This document shows positions 7,612 through 23,250 of a DNA stretch of 64,000 bases, in pieces. The DNA lies in assembly GCA_022510485.1 (NCBI GenBank), contig JAFLTI010000009.1, positions 1 to 64,000 of the forward strand. Reading direction: 5' to 3'. Source of the DNA: Lentimicrobiaceae bacterium (GTDB lineage Bacteria > Bacteroidota > Bacteroidia > Bacteroidales > P3). Under the pieces are notes generated by a model that was not told the DNA's origin, did not search any database, and saw nothing but the letters and a program-made list of their open reading frames with translations. Each line of letters begins with the position of its first letter. The first letter of the stretch is position 1. The position numbers and the translations under genes were made by a program.

Positions 7612-7654
7612 GGGCGGGGGGCAGGTTTTTCAAACCTGCCCCCCGCCCTTTTTT
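7612..7654 (+). terminator. Intrinsic terminator of dnaK
   Basis: Perfect 17-bp stem (GGGCGGGGGGCAGGTTT / AAACCTGCCCCCCGCCC) with a TTC loop, followed by T6. The T-tract runs into the stop codon of the convergent cysH. Read from the cysH side the hairpin lacks a T-run, so it mainly serves dnaK. Confidence 0.92.
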
Positions 7655-8357
7655 ATCTATGATGTAATCCACACTCGCGGTGGTCGGGAGATTCCCACCA
7701 CCAGCGGCCTGAACGGATATCCTCGCCGAGTTCTACGGCTCTTGTGCAAGGTTGGCATCCTATACTTGGAAAACCGTTATCGTGTAACTTGTTATAGGGC
7801 ACCGCATTCTGGTAAACATATTCCAAAACCTCATCCTCGCTCCAAGAAATCAAGGGATTGAGCTTAATCAAACCATGGGCTTCATCCCATTCAATCAGCT
7901 GCATGTTTTCGCGCGTTACCGACTGTTCGCGACGCAAACCGCAAATCCAAACTTCCAAACCCTTGAACGCCCGCGCCAAGGGTTCCAGCTTGCGCACGTG
8001 ACAGCAGCGTTTGCGGTTTTCCATACTTGCGTAAAAACCGTTTATTCCGCACTCGCGAACCAAGTTCTCTACCGATTCGCGCTCGGGAAAATATACCGAC
8101 AGACGTATACCGTAGTGCATTTCGGTACGGGCGATAAGGAGATATGTTTCGGAAAACAACCGCCCCGTATCGAGCGTAAAGATCTTGGGGGTTTTGCTTA
8201 TTTTACACAGCATATCGGTAAGCACCTGATCCTCTAAGCCCAAGCTTGAGGATAGGGCTATGCGATCGCCATACTGTTCCAAAAACCAACGCAATACATC
8301 TTGCGGTGCAGCATCGGCAAATTTTTCGTTGAGAGCCTTGATTTCTTCCTGTTTCAT
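7653..8357 (-). CDS. cysH: Assimilatory adenylyl-sulfate (APS) reductase, CysH family
   Basis: 234-aa thioredoxin-dependent reductase that converts activated sulfate to sulfite. It has the catalytic ECGLH motif at the C-terminus (C229) and, importantly, the CC...CxxC cluster ligands C118/C119 (KRCCH) and C201/C204 (GCQPC) that bind a [4Fe-4S] cluster. By established knowledge this marks APS reductases rather than cluster-free PAPS reductases. That agrees with the neighbours: cysD and cysN make APS and there is no APS kinase (cysC) in the operon. It is the last gene of the pst-cys run, 13 bp after cysN. Sulfite reductase must be elsewhere. Confidence 0.93.
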   Translation of the reverse strand: MKQEEIKALNEKFADAAPQDVLRWFLEQYGDRIALSSSLGLEDQVLTDMLCKISKTPKIFTLDTGRLFSETYLLIARTEMHYGIRLSVYFPERESVENLVRECGINGFYASMENRKRCCHVRKLEPLARAFKGLEVWICGLRREQSVTRENMQLIEWDEAHGLIKLNPLISWSEDEVLEYVYQNAVPYNKLHDNGFPSIGCQPCTRAVELGEDIRSGRWWWESPDHRECGLHHR

Positions 8358-8370
8358 AGCTTCAGGGGTT

Positions 8371-9636
8371 TTAGATTATCATTCCCGCTCCTACGGTATC
8401 GTTGGTATCGGGGTCTACAAAGACCACGCTGCCGGTTGTTCGGTTGGCGGTGTAGGAATCGAATACCAGAGCCTGCGCCGTGCGGATCCGGATGCGGGCT
8501 ATATCGTTGGCGTTTAATTCGCTTACGCCTTTTAGCTGTTCCAAGGTATTGATGTCTACCTTGTATTCGATTTCCTTAACCATACCGACGGTTTCTGCCG
8601 TTGCCTGACGGATAAGGTAACGTTTGCCTAATTGCAGCTTGTCTTCTCGAAGCCAGCACACCATCATCGTAATATCCTGCGAGGTTACGGGCTGGGGTTC
8701 ATCGCTGCGCACAATCAAATCGCCGCGGCTTATGTCTATATCGTCGCTAAGGCAAACCGTAACAGATTCGGGAGCGAAAGTTTCTTCCTTGCGCTTGTCG
8801 GCGAACCACAGCGACTCTACTGTGGAGCGTTTGCCTGAGGGCAAGACCGTAACGGAATCGCCTACGTGGAGCGTTCCCGCACACAAACGGCCTGCATATC
8901 CGCGAAAGTCGTGAAATTTGTCGGATATGGGTCTTATAACGTGCTGCACGGGTATCCGCAAGGGCTGCTGCGGCAAGTCGTGCCCTACGGGAACAGTTTC
9001 CAAAAGGTTGAGCAGCGTGCCTCCGTTGTACCAAGGCATATTGCTTGATGAAGAAACCACATTGTCGCCGAATTTTGCCGAAATAGGCATAAACGTTATC
9101 TTGCCCACAGGCAGTTTTTCCGCCATAGCCAGATAGTCCTGCTCAATCTTAGAAAAGACTTCCTGCGAGAAATCCACCAAATCCATTTTGTTTACGCAAA
9201 CCACAATATGGGGAATACCCAAAAGCGCGGCGATATAGGTGTGGCGCACAGTCTGTTCCAGCACGCCGTGACGGGCATCTACCAAAATAACTGCCAAATC
9301 AGCCGTAGAGGCACCGGTAGCCATATTGCGGGTGTACTCTACATGCCCCGGCGTATCGGCAATGATGAATTTACGTTTGGGCGTGGCAAAATAGCGGTAT
9401 GCCACATCAATGGTGATTCCTTGTTCGCGCTCGGCACGAAGACCGTCGGTGAGCAGGGCAAGGTTGAGTTCTTCGTTGCCACGGCTGCGCGAAGCGGTTT
9501 CCACAGCTTCAAGCTGATCCTCAAAAATCGACTTGCTGTCGTAGAGCAGACGGCCTATAAGCGTGCTTTTACCGTCGTCAACGCTGCCGGCAGTGGTAAA
9601 GCGCAGCAGCTCCATATCTAAATATCCTTTTTCCAT
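8371..9636 (-). CDS. cysN: Sulfate adenylyltransferase subunit 1 (GTPase)
   Basis: 421-aa regulatory GTPase subunit of ATP sulfurylase, which drives APS formation from ATP and sulfate. EF-Tu-like GTPase motifs are clear: P-loop GSVDDGKSTL, DTPGHVEYTRNM, NKMDLVDF. The length stops after the beta-barrel domains, so there is no fused CysC kinase as found in some NodQ/CysNC proteins. It follows cysD by 18 bp and precedes cysH by 13 bp, giving a compact sulfate-activation cassette. Confidence 0.96.
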   Translation of the reverse strand: MEKGYLDMELLRFTTAGSVDDGKSTLIGRLLYDSKSIFEDQLEAVETASRSRGNEELNLALLTDGLRAEREQGITIDVAYRYFATPKRKFIIADTPGHVEYTRNMATGASTADLAVILVDARHGVLEQTVRHTYIAALLGIPHIVVCVNKMDLVDFSQEVFSKIEQDYLAMAEKLPVGKITFMPISAKFGDNVVSSSSNMPWYNGGTLLNLLETVPVGHDLPQQPLRIPVQHVIRPISDKFHDFRGYAGRLCAGTLHVGDSVTVLPSGKRSTVESLWFADKRKEETFAPESVTVCLSDDIDISRGDLIVRSDEPQPVTSQDITMMVCWLREDKLQLGKRYLIRQATAETVGMVKEIEYKVDINTLEQLKGVSELNANDIARIRIRTAQALVFDSYTANRTTGSVVFVDPDTNDTVGAGMII

Positions 9637-9654
9637 AGTGCGTTTCGTTCTCGA

Positions 9655-10563
9655 TTAAAAATAGCCGGCTTTCTTTCTGTCTTCCATAGCGGTTTCAGAA
9701 CGCTTGTCGTCGGCACGTCCGCCGCGCTCGGTAACCCGTGTGGCGGCTATCTCGTCGATAATCTCTTCTAATGTATGGGCGTGCGAAAGGGTAAGTCCCG
9801 TGCAGGTTATATCGCCTATGGTGCGGCAACGAACCTCTTTTTCCACCACTTCTTCGTTCGGTTTGAGCTTCATGCACGGCTCGGCGGCAAGCCATTGTCC
9901 GTCGCGCTCAAAAACTTGACGTCTGTGGGTAAAATAGAGGCTCGGCATCTCTATCTTTTCTTGATAGATATACTGCCATACGTCCATTTCCGTCCAATTG
10001 CTGATAGGAAACACCCGAAAATGCTCGCCCATGTTCTTACGACCGTTAAAGATATTCCACAATTCGGGGCGTTGGTTCTTGGGATTCCATTGACCGAACT
10101 CGTCACGGTGCGAAAAGAAACGCTCTTTGGCGCGGGCTTTTTCTTCGTCGCGGCGCGCTCCTCCTATGGCGGCGTCAAAACGGTATTTTTCTATGGTGTC
10201 GAGCAGTGTTACAGTCTGCAATTTGTTGCGGCTGGCGTTGTAGCCCGTTTCTTCCTTTACCCTGCCTTTGTCTATTGACTCCTGTACCGAACCAACTACC
10301 AATTCCACGCCCAATCTCTTTACCAAGGCATCGCGGTATCGGATAGTTTCGGCAAAATTGTGTCCGGTGTCGATATGAACCAAAGGAAAAGGAATCTTAG
10401 CCGGATAAAACGCTTTCCAAGCCAGATGCACCACTACGATAGAATCTTTACCGCCCGAAAAGAGAATGGCAGGACGCTCAAACTGCTCCGCCACCTCGCG
10501 CAGAACGTAGACAGCCTCTGCTTCGAGTTCTTTCAGATGGGTCAATTTTCTGTTGTTGTCCAT
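9655..10563 (-). CDS. cysD: Sulfate adenylyltransferase subunit 2
   Basis: Catalytic ATP pyrophosphatase subunit of ATP sulfurylase. The PP-loop SGGKDSIVVVHL and the conserved C-terminal EDRKKAGYF are present. The track gives 334 aa from 10659, but the first 32 residues are rich in Arg/Lys/Cys, lie over the end of pstB and do not look like CysD. The ATG at 10563 (MDNNRKLTHLKELEAEAVY) gives the usual start and a length of 302 aa. It lies only 25 bp after pstB, so it is probably co-transcribed with the transporter genes. Confidence 0.95.
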   Translation of the reverse strand: MDNNRKLTHLKELEAEAVYVLREVAEQFERPAILFSGGKDSIVVVHLAWKAFYPAKIPFPLVHIDTGHNFAETIRYRDALVKRLGVELVVGSVQESIDKGRVKEETGYNASRNKLQTVTLLDTIEKYRFDAAIGGARRDEEKARAKERFFSHRDEFGQWNPKNQRPELWNIFNGRKNMGEHFRVFPISNWTEMDVWQYIYQEKIEMPSLYFTHRRQVFERDGQWLAAEPCMKLKPNEEVVEKEVRCRTIGDITCTGLTLSHAHTLEEIIDEIAATRVTERGGRADDKRSETAMEDRKKAGYF

Positions 10564-10588
10564 ATATGCTTTCTTTTTTCTTGCTTTA

Positions 10589-11434
10589 CTAACTGAACAC
10601 TCCCGACAGATAGTTGCGCGTAAGCTCATTCTGCGGATTGTGGAATACCTGTTGGGCATCGCCTGTTTCTACAATGCCTCCCATATAGATAAAAATCACG
10701 TGGTCGGCTATACGCAATGCCTGACGGAGCGTATGGGTCACCATCACAATCGAATAATTTTCCTTTAACTTGACAAACAGGTCCTCTACCGTTTTGCTCG
10801 ATACCGGGTCGAGCGCCGAAGTTGCCTCGTCGGCAAGGATATATTCGGGTTCTACGGCAAGACTGCGTGCCAAACAAAGGCGTTGCTGCTGACCGATAGA
10901 CAGGCGCGTGGCAGGTTCCCTCAGGCGGCCTTTTACTTCTTCCCAAAGCCCCACTTCGCTTAGATAATGCTTTACTACTGCATAGAGCCTGCGTCTACCG
11001 CGGATTCCATGAATCCGGCACCCGTAGGCTATGTTGTCGAATATCGACATCGGCAGCGGGCAAGGCTTTTGCGGCACAAGCCCGATACGGCGCCGTATTT
11101 CGGTAATCTCGGTGGCACCGCTGCGCACGATATCCTTATTGCCCAACATAATGCTACCGCTAATCTGCACATGCTCTATGGAATCGGTAAGGCGGTTGAG
11201 CGATTTGAGCAGCGTAGATTTGCCGCATCCGGAAGGACCGATGATGCAGGTGATTTTGTTTTTGGGAATACGCACGCTTACATCTTTGAGAATCTTCTGC
11301 CCGTCTATCGACAGGTTCAAGCCGCGTACCTCCAGCTGGGTATCAGGGTCGGCATGCCTGAACTTGGCATCCGGTGCAAAACGACCGGGTTTTCTTTCTT
11401 TATCGCGCAGCGATATGTTTTTGAAAAGGCTCAT
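10589..11434 (-). CDS. pstB: Phosphate-type ABC transporter ATP-binding protein PstB
   Basis: 281-aa ABC ATPase of the PstB family. Walker A is GPSGCGKSTLLKSLNRLTD with the PstB-specific NRL after it, the signature is LSIGQQQR, and Walker B is EYILADEATSALDP. It energises the PstC/PstA channel at the inner membrane. The start abuts the end of pstA (no gap), as expected in a pst operon. Unusually no phoU follows; instead cysD begins 25 bp downstream. The assignment to phosphate is by family only; the operon context raises the possibility of another oxyanion such as sulfate. Confidence 0.9.
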   Translation of the reverse strand: MSLFKNISLRDKERKPGRFAPDAKFRHADPDTQLEVRGLNLSIDGQKILKDVSVRIPKNKITCIIGPSGCGKSTLLKSLNRLTDSIEHVQISGSIMLGNKDIVRSGATEITEIRRRIGLVPQKPCPLPMSIFDNIAYGCRIHGIRGRRRLYAVVKHYLSEVGLWEEVKGRLREPATRLSIGQQQRLCLARSLAVEPEYILADEATSALDPVSSKTVEDLFVKLKENYSIVMVTHTLRQALRIADHVIFIYMGGIVETGDAQQVFHNPQNELTRNYLSGVFS

Positions 11435-12280
11435 TCAGACTTTGTTTTTCGAGAATTTTTTCATGATAAAACGAGAGGACAGGCTTATTACAAGCACTAT
11501 TATCGTCAATACTACAGCGGCGGCATAGGCGCGGTTCTGAACTTCCGCCTGCGGTGCACTGAGCTGAAAGAATATCGACAGCGGAAGCGTGGCGGCAGGC
11601 TGTGTAAGCGAGGTGGGAATGGAGTCGGAAAATCCTGCCGTAAACATCACCCCGGCGGCATCTCCTATGGCACGACCTACCGACAGCAAGGTGGCGGTGG
11701 CGATACCCGGCGCAATCTGGCGCAACATAATGCCGATAGTTTCCAAGCGTGTAGCCCCTAACGAATAGGAGGCATCCAGCAATTCGCGGGGAAAATTCTT
11801 GGCAACCTCGTCCATCGACCGTATCATAATCGGAACAATCAGCAAGGTGGTTACCAAAATACCTCCGGCAAGCGAGGTGCGCCAGCCCATATAAATCATC
11901 AACGTAAAGGCGAACGCGCCGTAAACTATGGAGGGAATACCGAAAAGCACATCGTAGGCAAGCCGTGCCACATAGGCAAATCGTGAATCTTTTTTGAGAA
12001 AGACGTTTAGATAAAAAACTACCGGAATACTGATGATAAGCCCCAACAGGGTGGATGCCAGCACAATGTAGAGCGACCCGACAATGGCATTGAGAAAACC
12101 GCCCTCCTTACCGATATAGAAACCTCCGCCGGGCAGGGAACTTACCATTTCCCACGTGATACAGCTCCAGCCGCGATGGAAAATAGTCCATACAATCGCC
12201 GCCACGAATCCGAACACGGTGAGCAGGGATATTATCATCAGCCCCTTGATGATGATTTCTTCTATGTATTTCGATCTCAT
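11435..12280 (-). CDS. pstA: Phosphate-type ABC transporter permease PstA
   Basis: 281-aa inner-membrane permease with about six transmembrane segments, beginning with a hydrophobic helix at about 15-35 (GLMIISLLTVFGFVAAIVW). The cytoplasmic EAA-like loop is visible around ELLDASYSLGATRLETIG. Family features such as VYGAFAFTLMIY and RAIGDAAGVMFTAG match PstA. It pairs with PstC to form the channel. Stop and start are flush with pstB and separated by 4 bp from pstC. Confidence 0.9.
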   Translation of the reverse strand: MRSKYIEEIIIKGLMIISLLTVFGFVAAIVWTIFHRGWSCITWEMVSSLPGGGFYIGKEGGFLNAIVGSLYIVLASTLLGLIISIPVVFYLNVFLKKDSRFAYVARLAYDVLFGIPSIVYGAFAFTLMIYMGWRTSLAGGILVTTLLIVPIMIRSMDEVAKNFPRELLDASYSLGATRLETIGIMLRQIAPGIATATLLSVGRAIGDAAGVMFTAGFSDSIPTSLTQPAATLPLSIFFQLSAPQAEVQNRAYAAAVVLTIIVLVISLSSRFIMKKFSKNKV

Positions 12281-12284
12281 ACCC

Positions 12285-13178
12285 TTATGCGTTTACTCTT
12301 TTAATGCGGTAAAGAATCATGCGGGATGCCAGATTAAACACCAGCACCACTATAAACAGAATCAGTGCCGCAAACATCAATGCCGCCTCGTACAAAGGCA
12401 GCGACAACATCTCTCCGTAGTTGTTGGCTATAAGTGCCGGAATGGGATAGCAGGCGTCTAACAAAGAGCGCGGCACTTCGGGCAGATTACCGCAAACCAT
12501 CAGCACGGCTATGGTTTCGCCCAGCGCACGCGATACGGCAAGCACCACCGCCGCAAAGATTCCCGGCAGTGATTTGCGCAACACTACCCTTTTAGCCGTC
12601 TGCCAGCGAGTGGAGCCTAATGCCTTGGAAGAATCGCGGAGTTCTTGAGGCACGGTGTCGAACAACTCCACAAACAGGCTCACCAACAGCGGCAGTATCA
12701 TAACGCTCAGCACGATGCCTCCCGTCAGTACGGTATATCCCGACGAGAATTTTACAAAGTGAGGTGCCAAACGGTCGGAAACCCAAGGCACAACAAGCAA
12801 GGTTCCCCATACACCGTAGATAACCGAAGGCAGGGCTGCCAATATGTCCAATGCCGGATATACCCAGCGTTTGACCCATGAACGCGCATATTCGGTAAGG
12901 AACACCGCCGTCAGCAAGGATAGAGGCAATGCCAAGGCAAGGGCAATGCCCGTAACCCAAACCGTTCCCATAATGAACGGAAAGAAGCCGAATTTATTTT
13001 TGAAAGGTTTCCATTCGCTTGCCGAAAGCAAATCCCATAAAGAGTGCTCTTCAAATATGGGGGCTGCCTTGAGATACAATCCCAGCCCCATAACGATTAC
13101 GAGCAACAACGACAGGGCGGTCATAACAAACATTACTCCGCCCGCTGCCCTTTCTCTGGCTATCCGCAAGGAACTCAT
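12285..13178 (-). CDS. pstC: Phosphate-type ABC transporter permease PstC
   Basis: 297-aa inner-membrane permease with a typical N-terminal hydrophobic helix (about 15-40) and the EAA-like loop ELRDSSKALGSTRWQTA followed by SRALGETIAVLMVCGN, both characteristic of PstC. Residues LAALPSVIYGVWG match the family loop. The start overlaps the stop of pstS by 4 bp, indicating translational coupling. Confidence 0.92.
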   Translation of the reverse strand: MSSLRIARERAAGGVMFVMTALSLLLVIVMGLGLYLKAAPIFEEHSLWDLLSASEWKPFKNKFGFFPFIMGTVWVTGIALALALPLSLLTAVFLTEYARSWVKRWVYPALDILAALPSVIYGVWGTLLVVPWVSDRLAPHFVKFSSGYTVLTGGIVLSVMILPLLVSLFVELFDTVPQELRDSSKALGSTRWQTAKRVVLRKSLPGIFAAVVLAVSRALGETIAVLMVCGNLPEVPRSLLDACYPIPALIANNYGEMLSLPLYEAALMFAALILFIVVLVFNLASRMILYRIKRVNA

Positions 13179-14155
13179 TCCGCCGTGGTTTTATCCTCCG
13201 GATGCAACAGCTGCATCGAATGTGCGATTTTTTCCTGCGACATACCGATGTAACCTGCCGGAACATTCTTTTGCTGTCCTTTACTCAAAACGTAGTCTAA
13301 AAACGCAATCATAACGGGATCGGCAGGAACGCCATTCGTTACTAAATACAGGTCGCGCGCCGGGGGCGAGGGATAGCGGTCGGCTGCTATCGCTTCGATG
13401 AACCGTTCTTTGGTATCGTAAAAATATTCTTCATCAGAAATCGTTCCATCGCCATCGGTATCTATGGGCAACACCGCCAGACCATCATTGGGACGGTGCG
13501 TATCGTTATCGTAGATATAGCCGATATTGTTGAGCCCTATACCGTAAACATCTTTCTGTATGGCAGCCGCCACCCCCGGATCTCCGAATACGGCAGTGCC
13601 GCCTAAATCTTCTTGTTTGGCACCAAGCCATAAAGCCCAAGTTTCCGCAGCGCCACAGGCATCGGAACGTGTATAGGCGTGCAAGGGTGTTTCATCGTCT
13701 GTACCCAGCACTTGTCCCCAAGTTGTAATTTCTCCCGTAATCCAAATCTTGATGGCTGTTTCCCGCGACAGTCCGTGTTTTAACAATTCCGGCAACAGGG
13801 GGTTGGCGGCATTGACGGTAGGTGCCACGGCATCCTTTGCCACAGCAAAACCCACAGCTCCTTTTGCTTGCTCGGGAGGATATACCTCTCGTGAAACCAT
13901 ACCGAAATCTACCACACCCGCCAATACGTCGGTCATACCTTTTCCGGCTCCTCCTGCCGAAATATCCACTCTCACGCCCGGATGTTCGGCTTGAAACTCG
14001 CCTGTCCACTGCACCGCCAGCGGATATAAAGCAAAAGCCCCTGATAGCGACAACTCTCCGCTCAAACCGTCTGCCGGCTTCCTTTTGGCGCCGCCGCAAG
14101 CCGAAAACAGCACAAGGGCAGCGCAGATACCACATCCTAAAAGATACTTTTTCAT
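13175..14155 (-). CDS. pstS: PstS-family substrate-binding lipoprotein
   Basis: 326-aa periplasmic binding protein with a lipoprotein signal peptide (lipobox FSAC, Cys20). PstS/PBP-like features include SLSGAFALYPLAVQW at the N-terminus, the anion-binding-type loop SAGGAGKG, and RSDACGAAETWA. A perfect EF-hand-type calcium loop, DTDGDGTISDEE, sits near residue 240. Similar loops occur in a subgroup of PstS-like proteins as I recall, so it may be structural. First gene of the seven-gene pst-cys operon, 4-bp overlap with pstC. The ligand is uncertain: phosphate by family, sulfate or another oxyanion by context. Upstream are a TATATTTG -7 box and a palindromic operator. Confidence 0.85.
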   Translation of the reverse strand: MKKYLLGCGICAALVLFSACGGAKRKPADGLSGELSLSGAFALYPLAVQWTGEFQAEHPGVRVDISAGGAGKGMTDVLAGVVDFGMVSREVYPPEQAKGAVGFAVAKDAVAPTVNAANPLLPELLKHGLSRETAIKIWITGEITTWGQVLGTDDETPLHAYTRSDACGAAETWALWLGAKQEDLGGTAVFGDPGVAAAIQKDVYGIGLNNIGYIYDNDTHRPNDGLAVLPIDTDGDGTISDEEYFYDTKERFIEAIAADRYPSPPARDLYLVTNGVPADPVMIAFLDYVLSKGQQKNVPAGYIGMSQEKIAHSMQLLHPEDKTTAE

Positions 14156-14187
14156 AATGGCGAATACCTTTATCTGTTAATTTGCCG

Positions 14188-14195
14188 CAAATATA
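14188..14195 (-). promoter_or_regulatory. -7 box of the pst-cys operon
   Basis: On the minus strand this reads TATATTTG, fitting the Bacteroidetes consensus TAnnTTTG. It lies 33 bp upstream of the pstS start. The -33 region would fall inside palindrome 1 (14198-14224), so a protein bound there would block or contact RNA polymerase. Confidence 0.6.
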
Positions 14196-14197
14196 CT

Positions 14198-14224
14198 TAA
14201 TCTACACTATATTTGTGTAGATTA
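14198..14224. promoter_or_regulatory. Palindromic operator 1 (candidate Rrf2-family site)
   Basis: TAATCTACAC-N7-GTGTAGATTA, perfect 10-bp arms with an A/T spacer (TATATTT). An identical-arm copy lies 56 bp away at 14254-14280. It is placed 2 bp upstream of the pst-side -7 box. Size and symmetry suit a dimeric winged-helix regulator, and the adjacent divergent Rrf2 gene is the obvious candidate (inference). Confidence 0.8.
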
Positions 14225-14253
14225 CACGGAACAAGCTATTTTACTTGCGTTTA

Positions 14254-14280
14254 TAATCTACACTTATTTTGTGTAGATTA
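14254..14280. promoter_or_regulatory. Palindromic operator 2 (candidate Rrf2-family site)
   Basis: TAATCTACAC-N7-GTGTAGATTA with the same 10-bp arms as operator 1; only the spacer differs (TTATTTT). Centre-to-centre distance is 56 bp. It covers the expected -33 region of the promoter whose -7 box is TACCTTTG at 14301-14308, so autoregulation of the Rrf2 gene is likely (inference). Confidence 0.8.
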
Positions 14281-14300
14281 AATTGATGTAGAGAAATATG

Positions 14301-14308
14301 TACCTTTG
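14301..14308 (+). promoter_or_regulatory. -7 box of the Rrf2-family gene
   Basis: TACCTTTG matches TAnnTTTG. Transcription would start near 14315, leaving about 18 nt before the ATG at 14333. This placement also argues against the TTG start at 14306 used in the ORF track. Confidence 0.6.
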
Positions 14309-14332
14309 CCCTATCAAATTTCTTACTTAAAG

Positions 14333-14749
14333 ATGTTGTCGAAACAGACCCGCTATGCCATGCTTGCCACGATTTTTTTGGCTCGCCGATATGGTGGCGA
14401 AAAAGCCACCATCGCTCAGATTGCCGAATCGGAGCGTATTCCGCAGCGTGTGCTGGAACGCATTCTGCTCAAATTGAAAAACCGGGGCTATTTAGAGAGT
14501 GTACGCGGCAAGGTGGGCGGTTATCTGCTGGCGTGCCGTCCCGAGGATATTACATTGCTCGATATTGTAATACTTTTTGAGGATTCGGTTAGTATGCTGG
14601 CGTGTCTGTGCACGGATGACGAATACCGCGAGTGCGAATTCTGCAAAGACGAAGCCACCTGCCCTATCCGTAGCACGTTTGCAGGAATCTACCACCAAAC
14701 CGTTGAAGTTCTGCGCACCACCACCCTCGCCGACATCATCAAGCACTGA
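14333..14749 (+). CDS. Rrf2-family transcriptional regulator
   Basis: 138-aa Rrf2 protein, the family of IscR, CymR and NsrR. The N-terminal winged helix is typical (SKQTRYAMLATIFLARRY, then IPQRVLERILLKLKNRGYLESVRGKVGGYLL). The C-terminal half carries a cysteine cluster, C91, C93, C101, C104 and C110 (CLC...CEFC...C), which could hold an Fe-S cluster or sense thiol/oxidant state; the spacing differs from IscR. I chose the ATG at 14333 because the family N-terminus starts there; the track start at 14306 is a TTG lying inside the promoter box. It is divergent from the pst-cys operon and two identical palindromes lie between them, so it is the likely regulator of sulfate assimilation here, analogous in role to CymR (inference). 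Confidence 0.9.
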   Translation: MLSKQTRYAMLATIFLARRYGGEKATIAQIAESERIPQRVLERILLKLKNRGYLESVRGKVGGYLLACRPEDITLLDIVILFEDSVSMLACLCTDDEYRECEFCKDEATCPIRSTFAGIYHQTVEVLRTTTLADIIKH

Positions 14750-14851: not shown

Positions 14852-16663
14852 TTAGCGAACCACCAATTTTACAGTGGATTCTCCCTTGTCGCCGCTTATC
14901 CATACGATATACAGGCCGGCGGAAAGACTACGCAAAGAAACCGTAAGCCTGTTCGTGCCTGCCATACCCGAAAAGTGGCATACCGGAAGCTGTTCCCTGC
15001 CGTCTACAGAACGGATACCATAGCGAACAATACCACTATGGGCAAGGGTAAACGACAATTCCGCCGTTTCATACGCCGGATTGGGATAAACCCTCAACTG
15101 AGAGATATTTTCAAATTTCTGTACCGCTACAGGACTGTAAGTGATCATCCATACAAGACTGTCGGTATAGGTTCCATCGTTGAATGCCACCCGGTTGCCG
15201 TTCTTGTCTAAAAGTTCTATATGCCCTTCTCCGCTTACATTGTTAATGCCGTCTTTTGCCAAGTCGTGAACAACAAACGTATTGCAGCCCTGAGCCAAGC
15301 TTATATCATGCGTGTGTTTTTCGGCTTCGCTCACATCCAAATCGGGATAAGCATCCAGTTTTTCATAAACCTGCCCATTCTCGTCTGTAAAAGACCACGA
15401 AATTTCGGAGCCCCAGCGGTCTTGCCAAAAGTTAAGACTTACCTCAGCATCGTTCACAATATAATAATCCTTGTGCGCCACAATGGTAACAGGGTCTTGC
15501 AAAAGGCTCAGTGTTTCTCCGTTTACCGCCTTTACCTGTACTTGCAGGCTGTCTTTTTGCCCTGCCTTGTCAAGCAAGACCGAGGGAATCTCTACCCGTA
15601 CCATTGAACCGGTGGCAAAACCCTCCGTTGCAACCGTAAATTCCTGTTCTTCGCCACGAGCGGTACGAAATACAAAACTCACATTTTCTATCCTGTCCGT
15701 TTCGGAGTTGCGGCTTTCCAAATCAAAACCGACACGTACTGCATTATTGCAGGTAGTCTGAGCGGCGGTTTCAAAGTTCTTCATTTGAAAAACATATTCG
15801 GGTCCATTAGAGAACATAGGTTCGGTACGGCAAACGTTCAACACCTCCAGTTCGCTTTCGGTAACAAAAGCCACCACCTGCAGTTGAAGGAAATCTACCG
15901 GCACATAGCGGTAATCCTCAGGCAATTCCAAGGTATAGGTTCTGCTTACAAAACTTCCCTGCGTGGTAGTTTCTACCACATCGCCCTCAATGCCGGTAAG
16001 CAAATCGCGCAACACATGAAGGTGCATATACGAACCATCGGACAATACTTGCAAGGGATTGAGTTCCGAACCGTCTTGTGTTCCTTTTATATTGTCCTGA
16101 ACCAACATTACATGAATGTAGTTTTGAGCCTCTGCAGACGATTCCGTATAGTAGAGCTGCACCGTAACGCTCAATTCGCGCTTGCGCCAGTCGATACCGG
16201 CTCTAGCGGCGATATTGACGGAGGCGGTGGCACGCTCATCGCCATTCCACAAGAGTTCCTCCACATAGTTTAACCAATTGCCCCTGTCGGCAATAGCAAG
16301 TGCCATTGAAGCAGGAAACATATGACGGCTGATTTCCGCAGAGGGAATACCCGTAACATCGGCACGGCTTGCCAAAGCTTCTCCGTATGCCGAGCGCAAA
16401 TCCACCTCCCCGGTGCGGGGGGCAGCCAAGGTACCGGCATGGATATTCACAAAAAAGCAATCTTCGGGATAAAGCTCTCCTATCTCCCTTGCGATTTTAT
16501 GACCGGCAGGGCAGTTCGGGCAATGGATTCCCGTAAATTCTTCCATAAGCACCTTACGGTATTGCGGCGTTTTGTCCACAATGGTGTCTTGCGCACCGAG
16601 CGTTCCCACACAGGCTGCAAAAGCGGCGAGGAGGAATATCGATCTTACTTTTTTGAGTTTCAT
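14852..16663 (-). CDS. Secreted thioredoxin-like (Omp28-related) protein with T9SS sorting domain
   Basis: 603-aa exported protein. The true start is probably the ATG at 16663 (MKLKKVRSIFLLAAFAACVG), which opens a signal peptide ending near LGAQ; the track start 18 codons earlier adds residues without signal character. After it comes a thioredoxin-fold segment with the dithiol CPNC in EEFTGIHCPNCPAGH, as in Omp28-related proteins of Bacteroidetes, then beta-rich domains, and a T9SS type A domain beginning VYPNPAYE. Function may be thiol-disulfide exchange or adhesion at the cell surface; unproven. Last gene of the cargo block, with terminators on both sides. Confidence 0.85.
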   Translation of the reverse strand: MKLKKVRSIFLLAAFAACVGTLGAQDTIVDKTPQYRKVLMEEFTGIHCPNCPAGHKIAREIGELYPEDCFFVNIHAGTLAAPRTGEVDLRSAYGEALASRADVTGIPSAEISRHMFPASMALAIADRGNWLNYVEELLWNGDERATASVNIAARAGIDWRKRELSVTVQLYYTESSAEAQNYIHVMLVQDNIKGTQDGSELNPLQVLSDGSYMHLHVLRDLLTGIEGDVVETTTQGSFVSRTYTLELPEDYRYVPVDFLQLQVVAFVTESELEVLNVCRTEPMFSNGPEYVFQMKNFETAAQTTCNNAVRVGFDLESRNSETDRIENVSFVFRTARGEEQEFTVATEGFATGSMVRVEIPSVLLDKAGQKDSLQVQVKAVNGETLSLLQDPVTIVAHKDYYIVNDAEVSLNFWQDRWGSEISWSFTDENGQVYEKLDAYPDLDVSEAEKHTHDISLAQGCNTFVVHDLAKDGINNVSGEGHIELLDKNGNRVAFNDGTYTDSLVWMITYSPVAVQKFENISQLRVYPNPAYETAELSFTLAHSGIVRYGIRSVDGREQLPVCHFSGMAGTNRLTVSLRSLSAGLYIVWISGDKGESTVKLVVR

Positions 16664-16680
16664 TTTCTGTTTATTTGGAA

Positions 16681-16714
16681 TAAAAAAAAGGGGTGATACA
16701 GCCGTATCACCCCT
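16681..16714 (-). terminator. Intrinsic terminator of the giant adhesin gene
   Basis: AGGGGTGATAC-AGCC-GTATCACCCCT, an 11-bp perfect stem at 16689-16714, followed on the minus strand by T8. It lies in the 62-bp gap before the next gene of the same strand, where I found no clear promoter. Confidence 0.9.
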
Positions 16715-16725
16715 CAAAACACAAA

Positions 16726-19700
16726 CTATCTTATTATGATAAAACGACCGGCAGCCTTACGTTTTCCGTCTGACAGAACCAGCGTATAAAGACCTGCGGG
16801 CAGGTTCAAATCGAATTGGCTAACGCCTTCCATTCTATCGGCTTGCCATACCAATGATCCGTCAAGCGCATAGACGCTTACCCTACCGTTATAAGGCAGG
16901 TTCAACGAGAAAATACCCTTGTTCGGATTGGGATTTATAACAAGCGATTCAAAACCGGCTTCTTCCAGTTCTTCGTTAGCTACGCCCTTACCCAAGTGGT
17001 CGGAGAAAGCATAGGCGGATTCACCCGTAGCATAAATTGCCTTAACCGCATACATATACCAATCATCAGGCAAATCGGCATGGCTGTCTTGCAGAGTCTT
17101 TTCGGTGGTGTTTTCTTTAAGCAAGGTCCAGCGGTCGGGAACGGTCATATCGCCTTCACGTAAACGATAAACCGTATAGGACTTCACAAAATCTTCGCCA
17201 TCCGCCTTAACCGCCTTGCTTTCTTCCACACCGGCTTCTATGGCATCGGTACAATATGCCTGAATCATCCAGTTGTAATCCAAATCGGGACTGAGGTCGG
17301 TGATATGCGCCCAGCTGCCATCCACATTAATCATATTACCCCTGCCGCGAACCGCCGGACCTCGGTCTATACCGCAACCCCAGCCTTGGGTGAGATTTGC
17401 CGTATAACCCACAAGAACGGTCTTGGTTCCATCAATATAGTACGGTTTATCCAATACAACTTCGTTCCATTCGTTGTACTTGATAGACGAAGAGGGAACA
17501 TTTTGAGACAATACGGCAATACCGTCTTCTCCTTCCCAGATTTGAACACGGTAAGTACCTCGGGTAGGTTGCGTTTCCTGAGAGGCGGGATAGAACCTGA
17601 TTTTGTAGATATACATACCCACCACATTGTTGTCCGCCAAATCGGAAGTGGTGTATTTATGCGCGCAGGAAGCCGAAAAACCGCTGTTCTGCTGTCCGAT
17701 ACCGGTAAAGAAGGTTTCGGTGCTCCACGTGATATAATGCGGATAGGAGCCGGGATTTACGGGCGAATACCAATCTACCCTCACCTCTGCATCACTACGC
17801 TTAAAGGCACGTACAATAGGTTTATCAAGCTTTTCTTTAAGTTCGTTGCCCTCCAAAACGGTTTTGGTATCCGAAATGCTTACGGTTTTGGTAAGTTTTT
17901 CAAAATGCGGTTTTTCAATTTCTAAGGTATAGGAAGCTTTCAATACCGCAGGCACCTCTACGGAGCCTTCCGCACCGAGCACTGCCGAATAGGTTTTTTC
18001 TGCATTGAAAAGCCTTACCGTAGCACCCTGAGCGGATGTTCCGTTATTGGTGGTGGCTTTTACCGTAACCACCGACACCTTGCCTTTGGGCAACATTGCC
18101 GAAAGAACGGTATCGGAGGTGTTTCCTGTCTGTGAACGGGAGAATACGGCATAATAGTAGTTGCCGTCGGCTTGGTTCTTCCAATCGTTGTCTACATAAC
18201 CCAGTTCCTTAAAGTCATTGCCGGAAAGCTTGCTCCACGAAGCGGGATTGGCAATATTGGCTTCGGTAAAGCGATACAGTTCGTAGGTATAGTTAAAATC
18301 ATCTCCGTCGGCTTTCGACAAAGTTTTGGAAGCACCGCGTATGTTGGAAACCGTAGCGCGTATCATCCAGTTGAAATTGTAGATAGCAGGACCGTAACTG
18401 CAGAACGAAACCCAATTGTTATTAAAGAAAAGTAAATCACCGTCTGTTACCAGAGGTCCATTATCGGAACCGATAGGATAAGACCCCGGCGACATATAAG
18501 CATTATACCCTATGATGTAGCTTTGTTCGGCATTGATTAAAACCGGTTCGTCTAAAACAATGGTGTTCCATTGTTCCATTACCAAATCGGCAGAAGATAC
18601 GGTTTGCGAATAAGCTTCTTTTTCGTTTCCTACATTGTCGCTCTTCCATACCTTAACCGTAAAGTCGGCACTGGCGGCAGGATAGAACGAAATGCTGTTG
18701 ATATAGAATCCGTCTACACCGGCGTTCTGCAATTCCTGCGGAGTATAACGATGTCCTACACTCATATCACCGCCTGCATTGATACCGTAACCGGAATTAA
18801 ATTCGCTTTGGGTTTTAGACAGTTCCACTTCCTGCTGTCTTCTGGGTTTTTCCCAGCTGCAATCTACATAGTCTACCCAGTCTACGGCATTAAATTCCAA
18901 AGGCGGGCGAACATCTTCGGTTAAAGTTATCGTACCCAAATCGTAATGGAGGGAATCCAAAACAATGTCTTTTTCGGTATAAGTAACAAAACCTTCCTTG
19001 CGAACGGTAATATCGTAGGTACCGTAGTGGATATTGGCAAGATAAGCGGAATCGTTTTGATTCACCGTTGCCGTGTAGGTGTTGTTGATGCCCTTAAGCT
19101 GCACCGTAGCTCCGTAGGCTTTTTCGCCCGTATTGGTAAGTACCTTTACGCGAACATCCACATATTTGCCTTTATCCACAGCGCGGGAGAAAGTGTAATC
19201 GGAATAAGAACCGACCCTGACACTGCGCACGGCATAACGCCAAAGCGTATCTTTGAGCGCATGCCAGCCAAGGTCGCGCAACTGCATATCGGCAATCGGG
19301 TTCTCGGTAAGTTTTGTCCATACGGATTGGTCTTGTTCCTCTCCGTTCAACAAACGGTAAACTTCGTAGGTATAGTCTTCCGTTGCCTTGCCGGGGGCTT
19401 CTTTTTTCAGTTCCGAAGCCTTGCGTTTGGCTTTGCTGCACAGTTTAAGCGTATAAACGGCGTTTTGAGCCGCAACCGCCGGAGCATTGTTCAAAGCCGG
19501 CATCGAAAACTCCGAAGAACCATATTTGCCCAAGAAGTCAAGATTTCCAGTTGTGGGACGAACACTCAGCAATTCTGCCGGATCGGTAGGTGTTGAATTA
19601 GGATTTGCCGAGCAATAGGTATGAATCAACCAGTTGTAATTCATGCTGGGAGATACCATAGCTACCTTTAGCCATGTGCGACCGTTATCTGAAGAAAACA

Positions 19701-22700
19701 AATCGCCGTTTTCTACGGCAGGCCCCCGGTCAAAGCCTACCGGATGCGAACCGGAACTCTGCTGCACCTTAAGCGCCACGATGTAGTGCTTGGAGGGGTC
19801 GATTGCCACAGGTTGCTGTAAGTCGTATTCGAACCATTCGCCAAATTGATCGATATTCACTTTTTCTTCGCGTACCAGAGATTCCACATTTTTTTCTCCA
19901 GCATAAATCTGCAAAACAAAAGTAGCCACCGCATCGGGCCAGAAACGTACCTTGGTGATGGCAGAAGCGGAGGTGATTCCTCTCTTTTCAAAATCCTGCG
20001 GCGTATAACGGTGTCCTACCACATAGGCTTGGTCGGAATTACCGCCAAAGCTACCGTAAATAGAACCTTGGTCTAACTGCAACCATGCCACCGGAACGGG
20101 ATCGGTCCATTCTACGAGCGCATAGTCCGTTTTGTCATAGGCAGTTACCGAAGACGGCATATTGATCATTTCTAAAAGCACGATGGTGTCTGCCACCAAG
20201 TCGCTTGCCTTTACTTCAAAAGGTTCGGCATAGTCGGAATAACCCGAAGCCTGAATCCGTGCGGTGTATGTAAGGTTGCCATATACGTTTTCTATAGAAT
20301 AGCAGCCGTTTTCATCGGTAACCACCGTGTATTTGCTGGGACCGTCTAAGGTAAGTTCCACCAAAGGCAGACCCTTGTGCGGATTGTCGCTGCCTACAAT
20401 CACGCCGCTTACCTTTACCTCCGGCTTAGACTGCATGGTAACATTCAAGCTTGTAGCTGTACCGGCGGCAATGCTTGCCGAAAGGCTTTGGTCTTCGTAA
20501 CCCACCTTGCTAAAGTTTACCGTATTGCTACCGGCAGGCACATAGGGAAATTCGTAATTACCCGACGCATCCGTAGTGCGGCTTCCGTTCAAACCGTTTA
20601 CCGTTACACGCACATCCGCCATAGCATTGCTGCCTGCTTCGGAAACCTTGCCTTGCAGGCTTCCCATACCGCTTATATCAAAGTAGAAAGTGGTATTAGG
20701 TCTAATCGAATAGAAACTTCCCACTAAATTGTTCATTTCGTCATCGTCCATGCTTACTCCCCCATAACCGTAAGTGGAACGATGTACTGCCGATGTACTC
20801 GATTCAGTACACAGAAAATACATTCCCGAATGTCCCAAAGTTCCGTAAGGGTTGCGCCCTTCTATGCAGATTACAAGGTTTCCTCCCCTATAATCGTAGG
20901 CGTGCTGCAAAGGCAGATACCAATCGTAACAGCCGTTTTCGATAGTAACCGTAGAGTCGAACACACAGGTAAGTTCATTTTTGCCGAACCAACCCGCACT
21001 CATATCGTAGCGGTCGCTCTCGCCCATCCAGATACGGAAATGCTGGTCTTCCAAAGGTTTATTGGTTTCAAAACCCACCATAAGCTGATACGAAATAGCC
21101 CGGATAGTTCCTACAAGACCCTGCATACCGGAAATGGGATATACCGTTTGCCCGAAACCTTCGTTGTAAACATACCAAGGTACGCTATAGGACTTTATCT
21201 CACCGTCGCCTATCTGCACTGCCCTGTATCCGTCGCCCTGCATCCTTACCGTTATGCCTTCGCCTATGTTGTTTTTGGCTACCTCATCATCTGCCCAAAC
21301 CACTTCGGCGCGTACCAAAAACACATCGGTATTCTGCGGAGTCCATTCTATGGCAATATCGTTTGTGCGACCCGAAGCCACGGGGCGGGTCTGTTCGGCA
21401 GAGGCGGCAAGTTCATTGCCCGCTTGGTCCAACAAACGCACCTTATAGTTACGGGCAGAGGCAGTACCCTTGTTTTCTACCGTAACCACATAGGTGGTGC
21501 TTTCGCCTTTCTTGGGCGTATGGGATCCCTTGATGGCTGAAACTGCCAAATCGTTGGCGGCTATTTCTTCTACCCACAGGTCATCTATCCAAAGGTAGCC
21601 ATCGTCTGTATGATAGAGAAAGCCTATACAGAAGCTGCCCGTTTCGGGAACGGTAAATTCCGCGCTCCTTTCCGTAAAATCACCCAAACTGCCCTCCACC
21701 ACATTGTCGAGAAGTTGACTCATTGCCTGCGAATTGGCAGTCTTGCCCAAAGAAACGCGCAAGTGTATATCCGAAAAAATAACACCCTTTACCCAATAGC
21801 GCAAACGGTAGTTCTTTCCTTTTTCAAAACGCATAAGCGGAGAAAACAGATAGTCGTTGGCAGGAGGAGGATTGAAAGTATTGTCGTAGCGGTCACTCCT
21901 ACCCAACAGCCAATTGTACCAAGCCGCGCCCGGTTTAAGATTGCCCCGGTAAGTTTCGCGGGTCCATACGCAGCCGTCGTTGTTCAAATCTGCCATTGAC
22001 CACAGGGCGCGGAAAGATTCTTCGTCTTCAAATTCTTCATGGTAAGGCAGGTTCATTGCCGTGCCTGCCTTTATTCCCTCGCTTACCGCCTTTTGTCCCA
22101 AACCTTTGGCATTGCGGGCGGTTACTTCGTAGTAAAAATAACCCAATTCTGCCACAGCATCCGTTTTGGTTTTAGCTTGGAGCGCGGTTTCCAGCACGGT
22201 ATAATTGGGATTCTTAGCCACCAGATAGGTTATGTTCTGCTTATCGTACCAGCCGCCGTTCTGCCCGAACTCGCCCGGTTCATCCCAAGTAAGGGTAACA
22301 TCGTTGCCGTTAACCGCCACTTTCAGGTTGCGCGGTGCGGAGGGCAGGTCTTCGCCCACAAAGGTATTTACCACCGAGGGATAACTGCGACCCGAAGCAT
22401 TGACCGCATATACATGATAGGTAACCTTGCCCGGTTGAGGGTCGGGGTCGGTCCAAATAACTTCCGCGCCCGGAGCCAGCGAAAGATTATAGGCTTGGGC
22501 GGTATTGCCATAGTTCTTGTAAATTTCGATGGCAGAAAGGCTTTCTGTAAGGAAATCCCCCTTTTCGTTTTGGCTCGGGTTTTTCCATTTAAGCTGCATT
22601 CCCGTGCCTTTGTTACCCGGAACCTGTACCAATCCTACAACAGGAGCCGGTACAGCAAACTCTATTTCTACCGTAATGGCAATATTGTCCACATACAGAC

Positions 22701-23244
22701 CTGGCCGACTGTTAGGTGCGGATACTGCCCTTACCGCTAAACAATATTGACCATCGGAAGGAACGGTAAAGGTTTGTGTGCGCCATGTTCCATTAGGCAT
22801 ATCCGACACATGGGTGCTATCCAAGCGCATATTCATGTGCGCCACATCCCGTTCGGTACCCAACCACATCTCTACGTCTTCTTCGTAATAGAGGTTGTTG
22901 GCAAAATACGAAAGCCTATAGACACGGTCTGCTTTCAATGTAAAGAATTTGGAAATGGCGTAATCATCTGCCTTGATATTGCTATATCCGTAAGACAATT
23001 CATAGGAATTACCCGGCGTAGAAGATGCCAAAGTAAAATTCCATGTTCTACCATCCTTATTGTTATCCACAATAAGCCATTCTTCTTTTGCCACATCGGC
23101 AGATAGAAATTCGTCGTAAAATACCGTATCGGTCTTTACGGCAGGCAGTTTCTGCACATTTTCTGCCTGCACGGAGACTGTACCTCCGGCAAAGAACATT
23201 CCCACTAAAGCGAGAATGTTCCAAATCTTTGCAATTCCTTTCAT
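16726..23244 (-). CDS. Giant T9SS-secreted modular adhesin (cleaved-adhesin / FN3 / CARDB / Cna-like repeats)
   Basis: 2172-aa exported protein. Signal peptide about 1-27. Then a cleaved-adhesin/choice-of-anchor-J module (about 43-190), two FN3-like domains (about 195-390), a second cleaved-adhesin module (about 395-560, starting LPYHEEFEDEESF), a CARDB-like domain (about 565-660), an unassigned beta domain (about 670-850), and carboxypeptidase-regulatory-like repeats (about 860-1020). Three copies of a roughly 165-residue module ending in YNW(L/M)I follow (about 1040-1207, 1465-1630, 1830-1997), each accompanied by FN3-like and regulatory-like spacers. A T9SS sorting domain (NPNPNKG...) closes it. 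Architecture recalls Porphyromonas HagA/gingipain adhesin regions. It follows the protease gene by 6 bp, so the two are surely co-transcribed. Ligand unknown. Confidence 0.88.
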   Translation of the reverse strand: MKGIAKIWNILALVGMFFAGGTVSVQAENVQKLPAVKTDTVFYDEFLSADVAKEEWLIVDNNKDGRTWNFTLASSTPGNSYELSYGYSNIKADDYAISKFFTLKADRVYRLSYFANNLYYEEDVEMWLGTERDVAHMNMRLDSTHVSDMPNGTWRTQTFTVPSDGQYCLAVRAVSAPNSRPGLYVDNIAITVEIEFAVPAPVVGLVQVPGNKGTGMQLKWKNPSQNEKGDFLTESLSAIEIYKNYGNTAQAYNLSLAPGAEVIWTDPDPQPGKVTYHVYAVNASGRSYPSVVNTFVGEDLPSAPRNLKVAVNGNDVTLTWDEPGEFGQNGGWYDKQNITYLVAKNPNYTVLETALQAKTKTDAVAELGYFYYEVTARNAKGLGQKAVSEGIKAGTAMNLPYHEEFEDEESFRALWSMADLNNDGCVWTRETYRGNLKPGAAWYNWLLGRSDRYDNTFNPPPANDYLFSPLMRFEKGKNYRLRYWVKGVIFSDIHLRVSLGKTANSQAMSQLLDNVVEGSLGDFTERSAEFTVPETGSFCIGFLYHTDDGYLWIDDLWVEEIAANDLAVSAIKGSHTPKKGESTTYVVTVENKGTASARNYKVRLLDQAGNELAASAEQTRPVASGRTNDIAIEWTPQNTDVFLVRAEVVWADDEVAKNNIGEGITVRMQGDGYRAVQIGDGEIKSYSVPWYVYNEGFGQTVYPISGMQGLVGTIRAISYQLMVGFETNKPLEDQHFRIWMGESDRYDMSAGWFGKNELTCVFDSTVTIENGCYDWYLPLQHAYDYRGGNLVICIEGRNPYGTLGHSGMYFLCTESSTSAVHRSTYGYGGVSMDDDEMNNLVGSFYSIRPNTTFYFDISGMGSLQGKVSEAGSNAMADVRVTVNGLNGSRTTDASGNYEFPYVPAGSNTVNFSKVGYEDQSLSASIAAGTATSLNVTMQSKPEVKVSGVIVGSDNPHKGLPLVELTLDGPSKYTVVTDENGCYSIENVYGNLTYTARIQASGYSDYAEPFEVKASDLVADTIVLLEMINMPSSVTAYDKTDYALVEWTDPVPVAWLQLDQGSIYGSFGGNSDQAYVVGHRYTPQDFEKRGITSASAITKVRFWPDAVATFVLQIYAGEKNVESLVREEKVNIDQFGEWFEYDLQQPVAIDPSKHYIVALKVQQSSGSHPVGFDRGPAVENGDLFSSDNGRTWLKVAMVSPSMNYNWLIHTYCSANPNSTPTDPAELLSVRPTTGNLDFLGKYGSSEFSMPALNNAPAVAAQNAVYTLKLCSKAKRKASELKKEAPGKATEDYTYEVYRLLNGEEQDQSVWTKLTENPIADMQLRDLGWHALKDTLWRYAVRSVRVGSYSDYTFSRAVDKGKYVDVRVKVLTNTGEKAYGATVQLKGINNTYTATVNQNDSAYLANIHYGTYDITVRKEGFVTYTEKDIVLDSLHYDLGTITLTEDVRPPLEFNAVDWVDYVDCSWEKPRRQQEVELSKTQSEFNSGYGINAGGDMSVGHRYTPQELQNAGVDGFYINSISFYPAASADFTVKVWKSDNVGNEKEAYSQTVSSADLVMEQWNTIVLDEPVLINAEQSYIIGYNAYMSPGSYPIGSDNGPLVTDGDLLFFNNNWVSFCSYGPAIYNFNWMIRATVSNIRGASKTLSKADGDDFNYTYELYRFTEANIANPASWSKLSGNDFKELGYVDNDWKNQADGNYYYAVFSRSQTGNTSDTVLSAMLPKGKVSVVTVKATTNNGTSAQGATVRLFNAEKTYSAVLGAEGSVEVPAVLKASYTLEIEKPHFEKLTKTVSISDTKTVLEGNELKEKLDKPIVRAFKRSDAEVRVDWYSPVNPGSYPHYITWSTETFFTGIGQQNSGFSASCAHKYTTSDLADNNVVGMYIYKIRFYPASQETQPTRGTYRVQIWEGEDGIAVLSQNVPSSSIKYNEWNEVVLDKPYYIDGTKTVLVGYTANLTQGWGCGIDRGPAVRGRGNMINVDGSWAHITDLSPDLDYNWMIQAYCTDAIEAGVEESKAVKADGEDFVKSYTVYRLREGDMTVPDRWTLLKENTTEKTLQDSHADLPDDWYMYAVKAIYATGESAYAFSDHLGKGVANEELEEAGFESLVINPNPNKGIFSLNLPYNGRVSVYALDGSLVWQADRMEGVSQFDLNLPAGLYTLVLSDGKRKAAGRFIIIR

Positions 23245-23250
23245 AGCTGT

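Follow-up and report, generated by a model that had tools for sequence, protein, structure and literature searches.

Among described members of the Rrf2 superfamily, the closest to the regulator analyzed here are CymR of Bacillus subtilis and Staphylococcus aureus, a cysteine regulator of sulfate and cysteine supply genes whose sites are long and AT-edged and whose DNA binding is controlled through a complex with CysK, and IscR, an Fe-S cluster-sensing protein with a C-x5-C-x5-C cysteine spacing that can both activate and repress. NsrR, RsrR and RirA are further cluster-binding relatives. B. subtilis CymR binds no cluster, and NsrR recognizes a 23-bp site that has a 7-bp centre (PMC9338935). 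Our search of the open-access literature returned nothing specific on a Bacteroidetes Rrf2 sulfur regulon or CymR consensus; judged from that literature only, an Rrf2 sulfur regulator of Bacteroidales is apparently undescribed. The control of sulfate assimilation also appears undescribed there for this order, which is abundant in the gut and matters for sulfide and cysteine supply.

Paired palindromes between rrf2 and a pst-cys operon

In the 64-kb window (the whole stretch of DNA analyzed), a divergent intergenic region of 177 bp (14156-14332) separates the start codons of a gene encoding a 138-aa Rrf2-family regulator (ATG at 14333) and of a pstSCAB-cysDNH operon. The region holds two perfect 27-bp palindromes of the pattern TAATCTACAC-N7-GTGTAGATTA, 56 bp apart from start to start, each with arms matching at 10/10 positions around a 7-bp spacer (Table 1). 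A sequence-only reading of this DNA had described the pair, the intergenic region and the size of the regulator, and all of these were borne out, the positions of the palindromes being exact. The 7-bp centre also agrees with the operator architecture of NsrR. At up to three mismatches, the pattern occurred twice in the window versus not once in 100 dinucleotide shuffles, and a pattern search of the whole 1.96-Mb genome recovered the same two palindromes and no more, with no match to a reversed control pattern.

Table 1 Features of the rrf2 and pst-cys locus, in window coordinates.
Feature	Position	Strand	Basis
CysH-like (P)APS reductase, end of the operon	7653..8357	-	ORF; context and sequence; conserved beside the operon in relatives
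CysN, sulfate adenylyltransferase large subunit	8371..9636	-	TIGR02034 above cutoff
CysD, sulfate adenylyltransferase small subunit; true start perhaps nearer 10560	9655..10659	-	Profile above cutoff
PstB-like ATPase	10589..11434	-	Profile matches
PstA-like permease	11435..12280	-	Profile match
PstC-like permease	12285..13178	-	TIGR02138 above cutoff
PstS-like substrate-binding protein, encoded first in the operon	13175..14155	-	Profile matches
Predicted -7 element of the pst-cys operon, TATATTTG	14188..14195 (read 14195-14188)	-	Pattern scan
Candidate operator copy 1, pst-side palindrome TAATCTACACTATATTTGTGTAGATTA, adjoining the pst -7 box	14198..14224		In-register conservation in L095, L096, L097 and L099; -7 geometry
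Candidate operator copy 2, rrf2-side palindrome TAATCTACACTTATTTTGTGTAGATTA, upstream edge of the rrf2 promoter	14254..14280		16-19/20 matches in L094-L097 and L099
Predicted -7 element of rrf2, TACCTTTG	14301..14308	+	Pattern scan; column conserved in relatives
Rrf2-family regulator, 138 aa; C91, C101 and C110 invariant, C104 nearly so	14333..14749	+	Pfam Rrf2 4.1e-35; alignments; fold closest to CymR

The regulator among Rrf2 proteins

The regulator passed the cutoffs of the Rrf2 superfamily (PF02082, 121 bits against 30; TIGR00738, 104.7 bits against 73.3) and missed the NCBIfam equivalog cutoffs of CymR (60.3 bits vs 195), IscR (63.2 vs 207.55), NsrR (42.4 vs 182) and RirA (59.6 vs 193). 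Its AlphaFold model (pLDDT 86) has a winged-helix fold in agreement with solved Rrf2 members. B. subtilis CymR was its best Foldseek match (2y75, TM 0.81), followed by IscR, RsrR and NsrR, and the 37 PDB matches at E<=0.001 were, by their descriptions, all Rrf2 proteins or putative regulators.

Besides the fold, conserved sites before sulfur-assimilation genes (cysDNH plus a transporter) are a CymR-like trait, but identity to CymR is only 28-29% and, unlike cluster-free CymR, the window regulator has three invariant cysteines, a GTGTAG/GTGTAC half-site and a Bacteroidales host. The protein would work like CymR yet is outside the CymR equivalog family. With IscR it has in common the Rrf2 fold (4cic, 4hf1) and three conserved cysteines in the corresponding part of the protein; linkage to a NifS-type cysteine desulfurase in some relatives is a further likeness. 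Its own neighbours are, however, sulfate-assimilation genes, and its cysteine spacing differs from that of IscR. The three cysteines, invariant among 38 orthologues and located in a loop modelled at low confidence, are arranged as C-x9-C-x8-C in the window regulator, with a first gap of x8 in most relatives. In contrast to NsrR and RirA, no NO or iron-regulation gene context was seen.

Conservation of the motif at orthologous loci

Orthologues of the regulator were detected in 49 of 393 Bacteroidales genomes (E<=1e-15) but in none of the other sampled members of the window's own family. We compared 80 named loci of relatives. In many of them rrf2 is divergent from porin-pstS-pstC-pstA-pstB-cysH/cysD/cysN genes, while in others a crp-rrf2 unit is divergent from an operon encoding an ABC-type ATPase, a CobW/HypB-like GTPase, a NifS-type desulfurase and an Fe-S protein; the gene context is one of sulfur metabolism throughout, with cysD, cysN, cysH, cysK, metY and nifS. 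The nifS-containing operon, typified by L055 (11090-14483) and present at many of the loci L054-L173, includes a CGACGC Fe-S protein gene, has the motif between itself and crp-rrf2, and includes three genes of four without a curated NCBIfam name. Two Rrf2 paralogues of this family are present in each of the genomes G030, G215, G344 and G360, one of those in G030 directly following cysDN (L082). At L076 and L079, the Rrf2 orthologues follow mnmH- and selD-like genes, which might indicate a connection to selenium.

The earlier reading had made its proposal depend on the motif occurring at orthologous loci, and there it was found. Among the closest relatives (L094-L099, L102, L103, L106 and L116), 16-19 of 20 positions match the window site, and the genomes of 8 of 10 relatives have one single match at up to three mismatches, always at the rrf2 locus. 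Twin sites are spaced by 57, 56, 56 and 57 bp in L095, L096, L097 and L099, respectively, and by 34 bp in L094; in the former four they were kept although the flanking and intervening sequence had diverged. In the wider clade the site is a shifted version, roughly TAATGTCTAC-N7-GTGTACATTT, whose genome-wide matches were no more frequent than those of the reversed-pattern control.

We trained a profile on 17 sites of one locus set and applied it to 63 held-out loci, with 570 other upstream regions as the background. The 99th percentile of the background was exceeded by 48 of the 63 regulator upstream regions, the remaining 15 being without a strong site, and the median best score was 19.2, compared to -0.2 for the background and at most 7.9 for column-permuted profiles. 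The associated p-value of 2.5e-32 overstates independence because the loci, held-out and training ones included, are kin. The top background matches preceded pstS, porin or crp genes and are probably true targets. A large regulon was rejected, the sites with up to three mismatches in the window genome and in 8 relatives being at the rrf2 locus only. The new Bacteroidetes sulfur regulon proposed from the sequence thus stood as regards a motif conserved beside the regulator at porin-pstSCAB-cysDNH or nifS operons, but the regulon is small. That many related gut and environmental bacteria carry matching sites next to an orthologous regulator suggests an apparently undescribed system for controlling sulfur supply.

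Sites accompany the regulator, not the operon

L098 has rrf2 and the porin-pstS genes in the same orientation, and there a site with 19 of 20 matches precedes the porin gene. In five genomes of the same family with an orthologous pst-cys operon but no detected rrf2, the best site in the whole locus had 12-13 of 20 matches, which is the background level, and only a few three-mismatch matches, not exceeding those of the control pattern, were found in 100 other genomes of the family. The sites therefore travel with the regulator and not with the operon, which argues that the palindromes are very probably operators of the adjacent Rrf2 regulator, in support of the assignment made by the sequence-only reading.

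A different binder is conceivable, for instance the Crp/Fnr-type protein whose gene precedes rrf2 in many relatives; where the two genes make up a single unit, as in many relatives, the site is found ahead of crp. We nevertheless consider this reading very unlikely, and rejected the Crp/Fnr protein as the binder because the strongest sites, those of the window and its closest relatives, occur without crp; crp-free units (L071, L172 and L118) also carry the site, and site and Rrf2 are jointly absent from genomes of the same family. An RNA hairpin, a terminator or a repeat element is hardly credible as an explanation of the palindromes. Perfect arms and a 7-nt loop could indeed form an RNA fold, but on both sides transcription is predicted to start downstream of the two elements, a repeat family would have just two copies genome-wide, and conservation tracks the consensus bases and the promoter register. 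Rfam searches likewise gave no credible family, the palindrome having miRNA-type matches only, far below the gathering score.

Promoter geometry and proposed mode of regulation

Transcription starts were predicted from the Bacteroidetes TAnnTTTG consensus. Only 2 bp separate copy 1 from the predicted pst -7 box, so that one copy does abut this box, as had been claimed, and the predicted rrf2 -7 box begins 20 bp downstream of the end of copy 2. The accompanying claim that copy 2 covers the -33 region of the rrf2 promoter was only partly accurate: the expected -33 position is touched by the palindrome, which is not centred there. In 7 relatives, a TAnnTTTG -7 box is found inside the pst-side site at a fixed offset.

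These elements are compatible with a model in which each 27-bp palindrome would be occupied by a dimer of the Rrf2-family protein, copy 1 directly beside the -7 box of pstSCAB-cysDNH and copy 2 at the upstream border of the rrf2 promoter. When sulfur is plentiful, the protein would repress sulfate uptake and activation as well as its own gene; when cysteine or Fe-S clusters are low, repression would be lifted, the signal being sensed directly or indirectly via the conserved cysteines. Taken as a whole, this explanation, with the palindromes as predicted operators bound by an autoregulated Rrf2 repressor of sulfate uptake and assimilation, is in our judgement likely. What the sequences show are the sites, how they are conserved, that they occur together with the regulator, and the predicted promoter geometry; the parts that we infer are that the protein binds, that it represses and does not activate, that the substrate is sulfate, and that a cysteine- or Fe-S-type signal acts through the three invariant cysteines. 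The presence of the -7 box within the pst-side site of the 7 relatives favours repression by occlusion, and cysteine or Fe-S status is the signal suggested by the conserved cysteines, the cysteine-supply genes and the linkage to nifS. The protein might alternatively bind the palindromes as an activator or dual regulator, like IscR at some promoters: copy 1 in the window covers the spacer and -33 region and not the -7 box, and copy 2 is upstream of the rrf2 -7 box. We regard this as unlikely, as the geometry in the 7 relatives fits occlusion of the polymerase.

The transporter may instead be a phosphate importer with an incidental cys link, in which case there would be no sulfur regulon. PstS and PstC resemble phosphate systems, the former being kin to phosphate-binding proteins, the porin of the relatives belongs to the phosphate-selective O/P family, and the genome has this PstC-type system and no second one. 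Against this, cysD, cysN and cysH repeatedly adjoin the transporter beside rrf2, and other rrf2 loci have nifS, cysK and metY as neighbours, making a pure phosphate importer quite improbable. Transport of sulfate by the PstSCAB-like system is the function that gene context alone suggests. The porin O/P gene found ahead of pstS in most relatives is absent from the window operon. On the other side of rrf2, the window (14852-26007) encodes three large, secreted-looking proteins (~620, 2172 and 918 aa) with C-terminal tails that resemble type IX secretion signals.

Evolution of the sulfur module and of the half-site

CysD of the window has 90-92% identity to its counterparts in L094-L096 versus 79-80% to copies from the same genus, whereas its DnaK has 93% identity to a same-genus genome versus ~79% to the L094-L096 genomes. 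In a PstC tree, the window grouped with L094-L097, and the regulator-less G530 of the same family was placed next to them (100/99), with moderate supports near the window. The discordance of the sulfur module (window 7653-14749) with DnaK kinship suggests horizontal transfer or differential loss.

A comparison of 42 regulators showed that the GTGTAG group and the GTGTAC group have no residue in common at positions 43, 57 and 58, which belong to the recognition helix and the wing. These groups correspond to two clades, and kinship confounds the covariation between residue 58 and the half-site; L054, with T57/R58 and a GTGTAC-type site, seems to be an exception. The pairing of two operator variants with corresponding differences in the protein would make this a natural case in which to study changes of Rrf2 DNA specificity. 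As a broader and tentative reading, to which we give a little less than even weight, an undescribed Rrf2 subfamily may be the sulfur-supply regulator across much of Bacteroidales, coupling sulfate import and activation (in some lineages, the nifS operon) to cysteine or Fe-S status via a three-cysteine site, with regulator, twin operators and operon moving or vanishing as one module and the half-site having changed with residues 43, 57 and 58. With a defined regulator, a defined 27-bp candidate operator and a set of listed carrier genomes, sulfur control in these bacteria is open to direct testing.

A second palindromic element

Another palindrome, AGGTATTTATACCT, was observed ~35 bp upstream of the pst -7 box, at about 7928-7941 in L095 and near the site in L102, L103, L106 and L116; in the window it is degenerate (about 14232-14247). 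As part of the Rrf2 regulon this second element, GTATTTATAC, was set aside: it is conserved close to the site in some relatives, but is degenerate in the window and precedes apparently unrelated genes elsewhere, among them carboxynorspermidine-decarboxylase-like and aminotransferase-like genes (named by eye). At similar spacing, AGGTATTTATACCT also precedes apparently unrelated genes in L231, L232, L244 and L247, and it could be an activator site.
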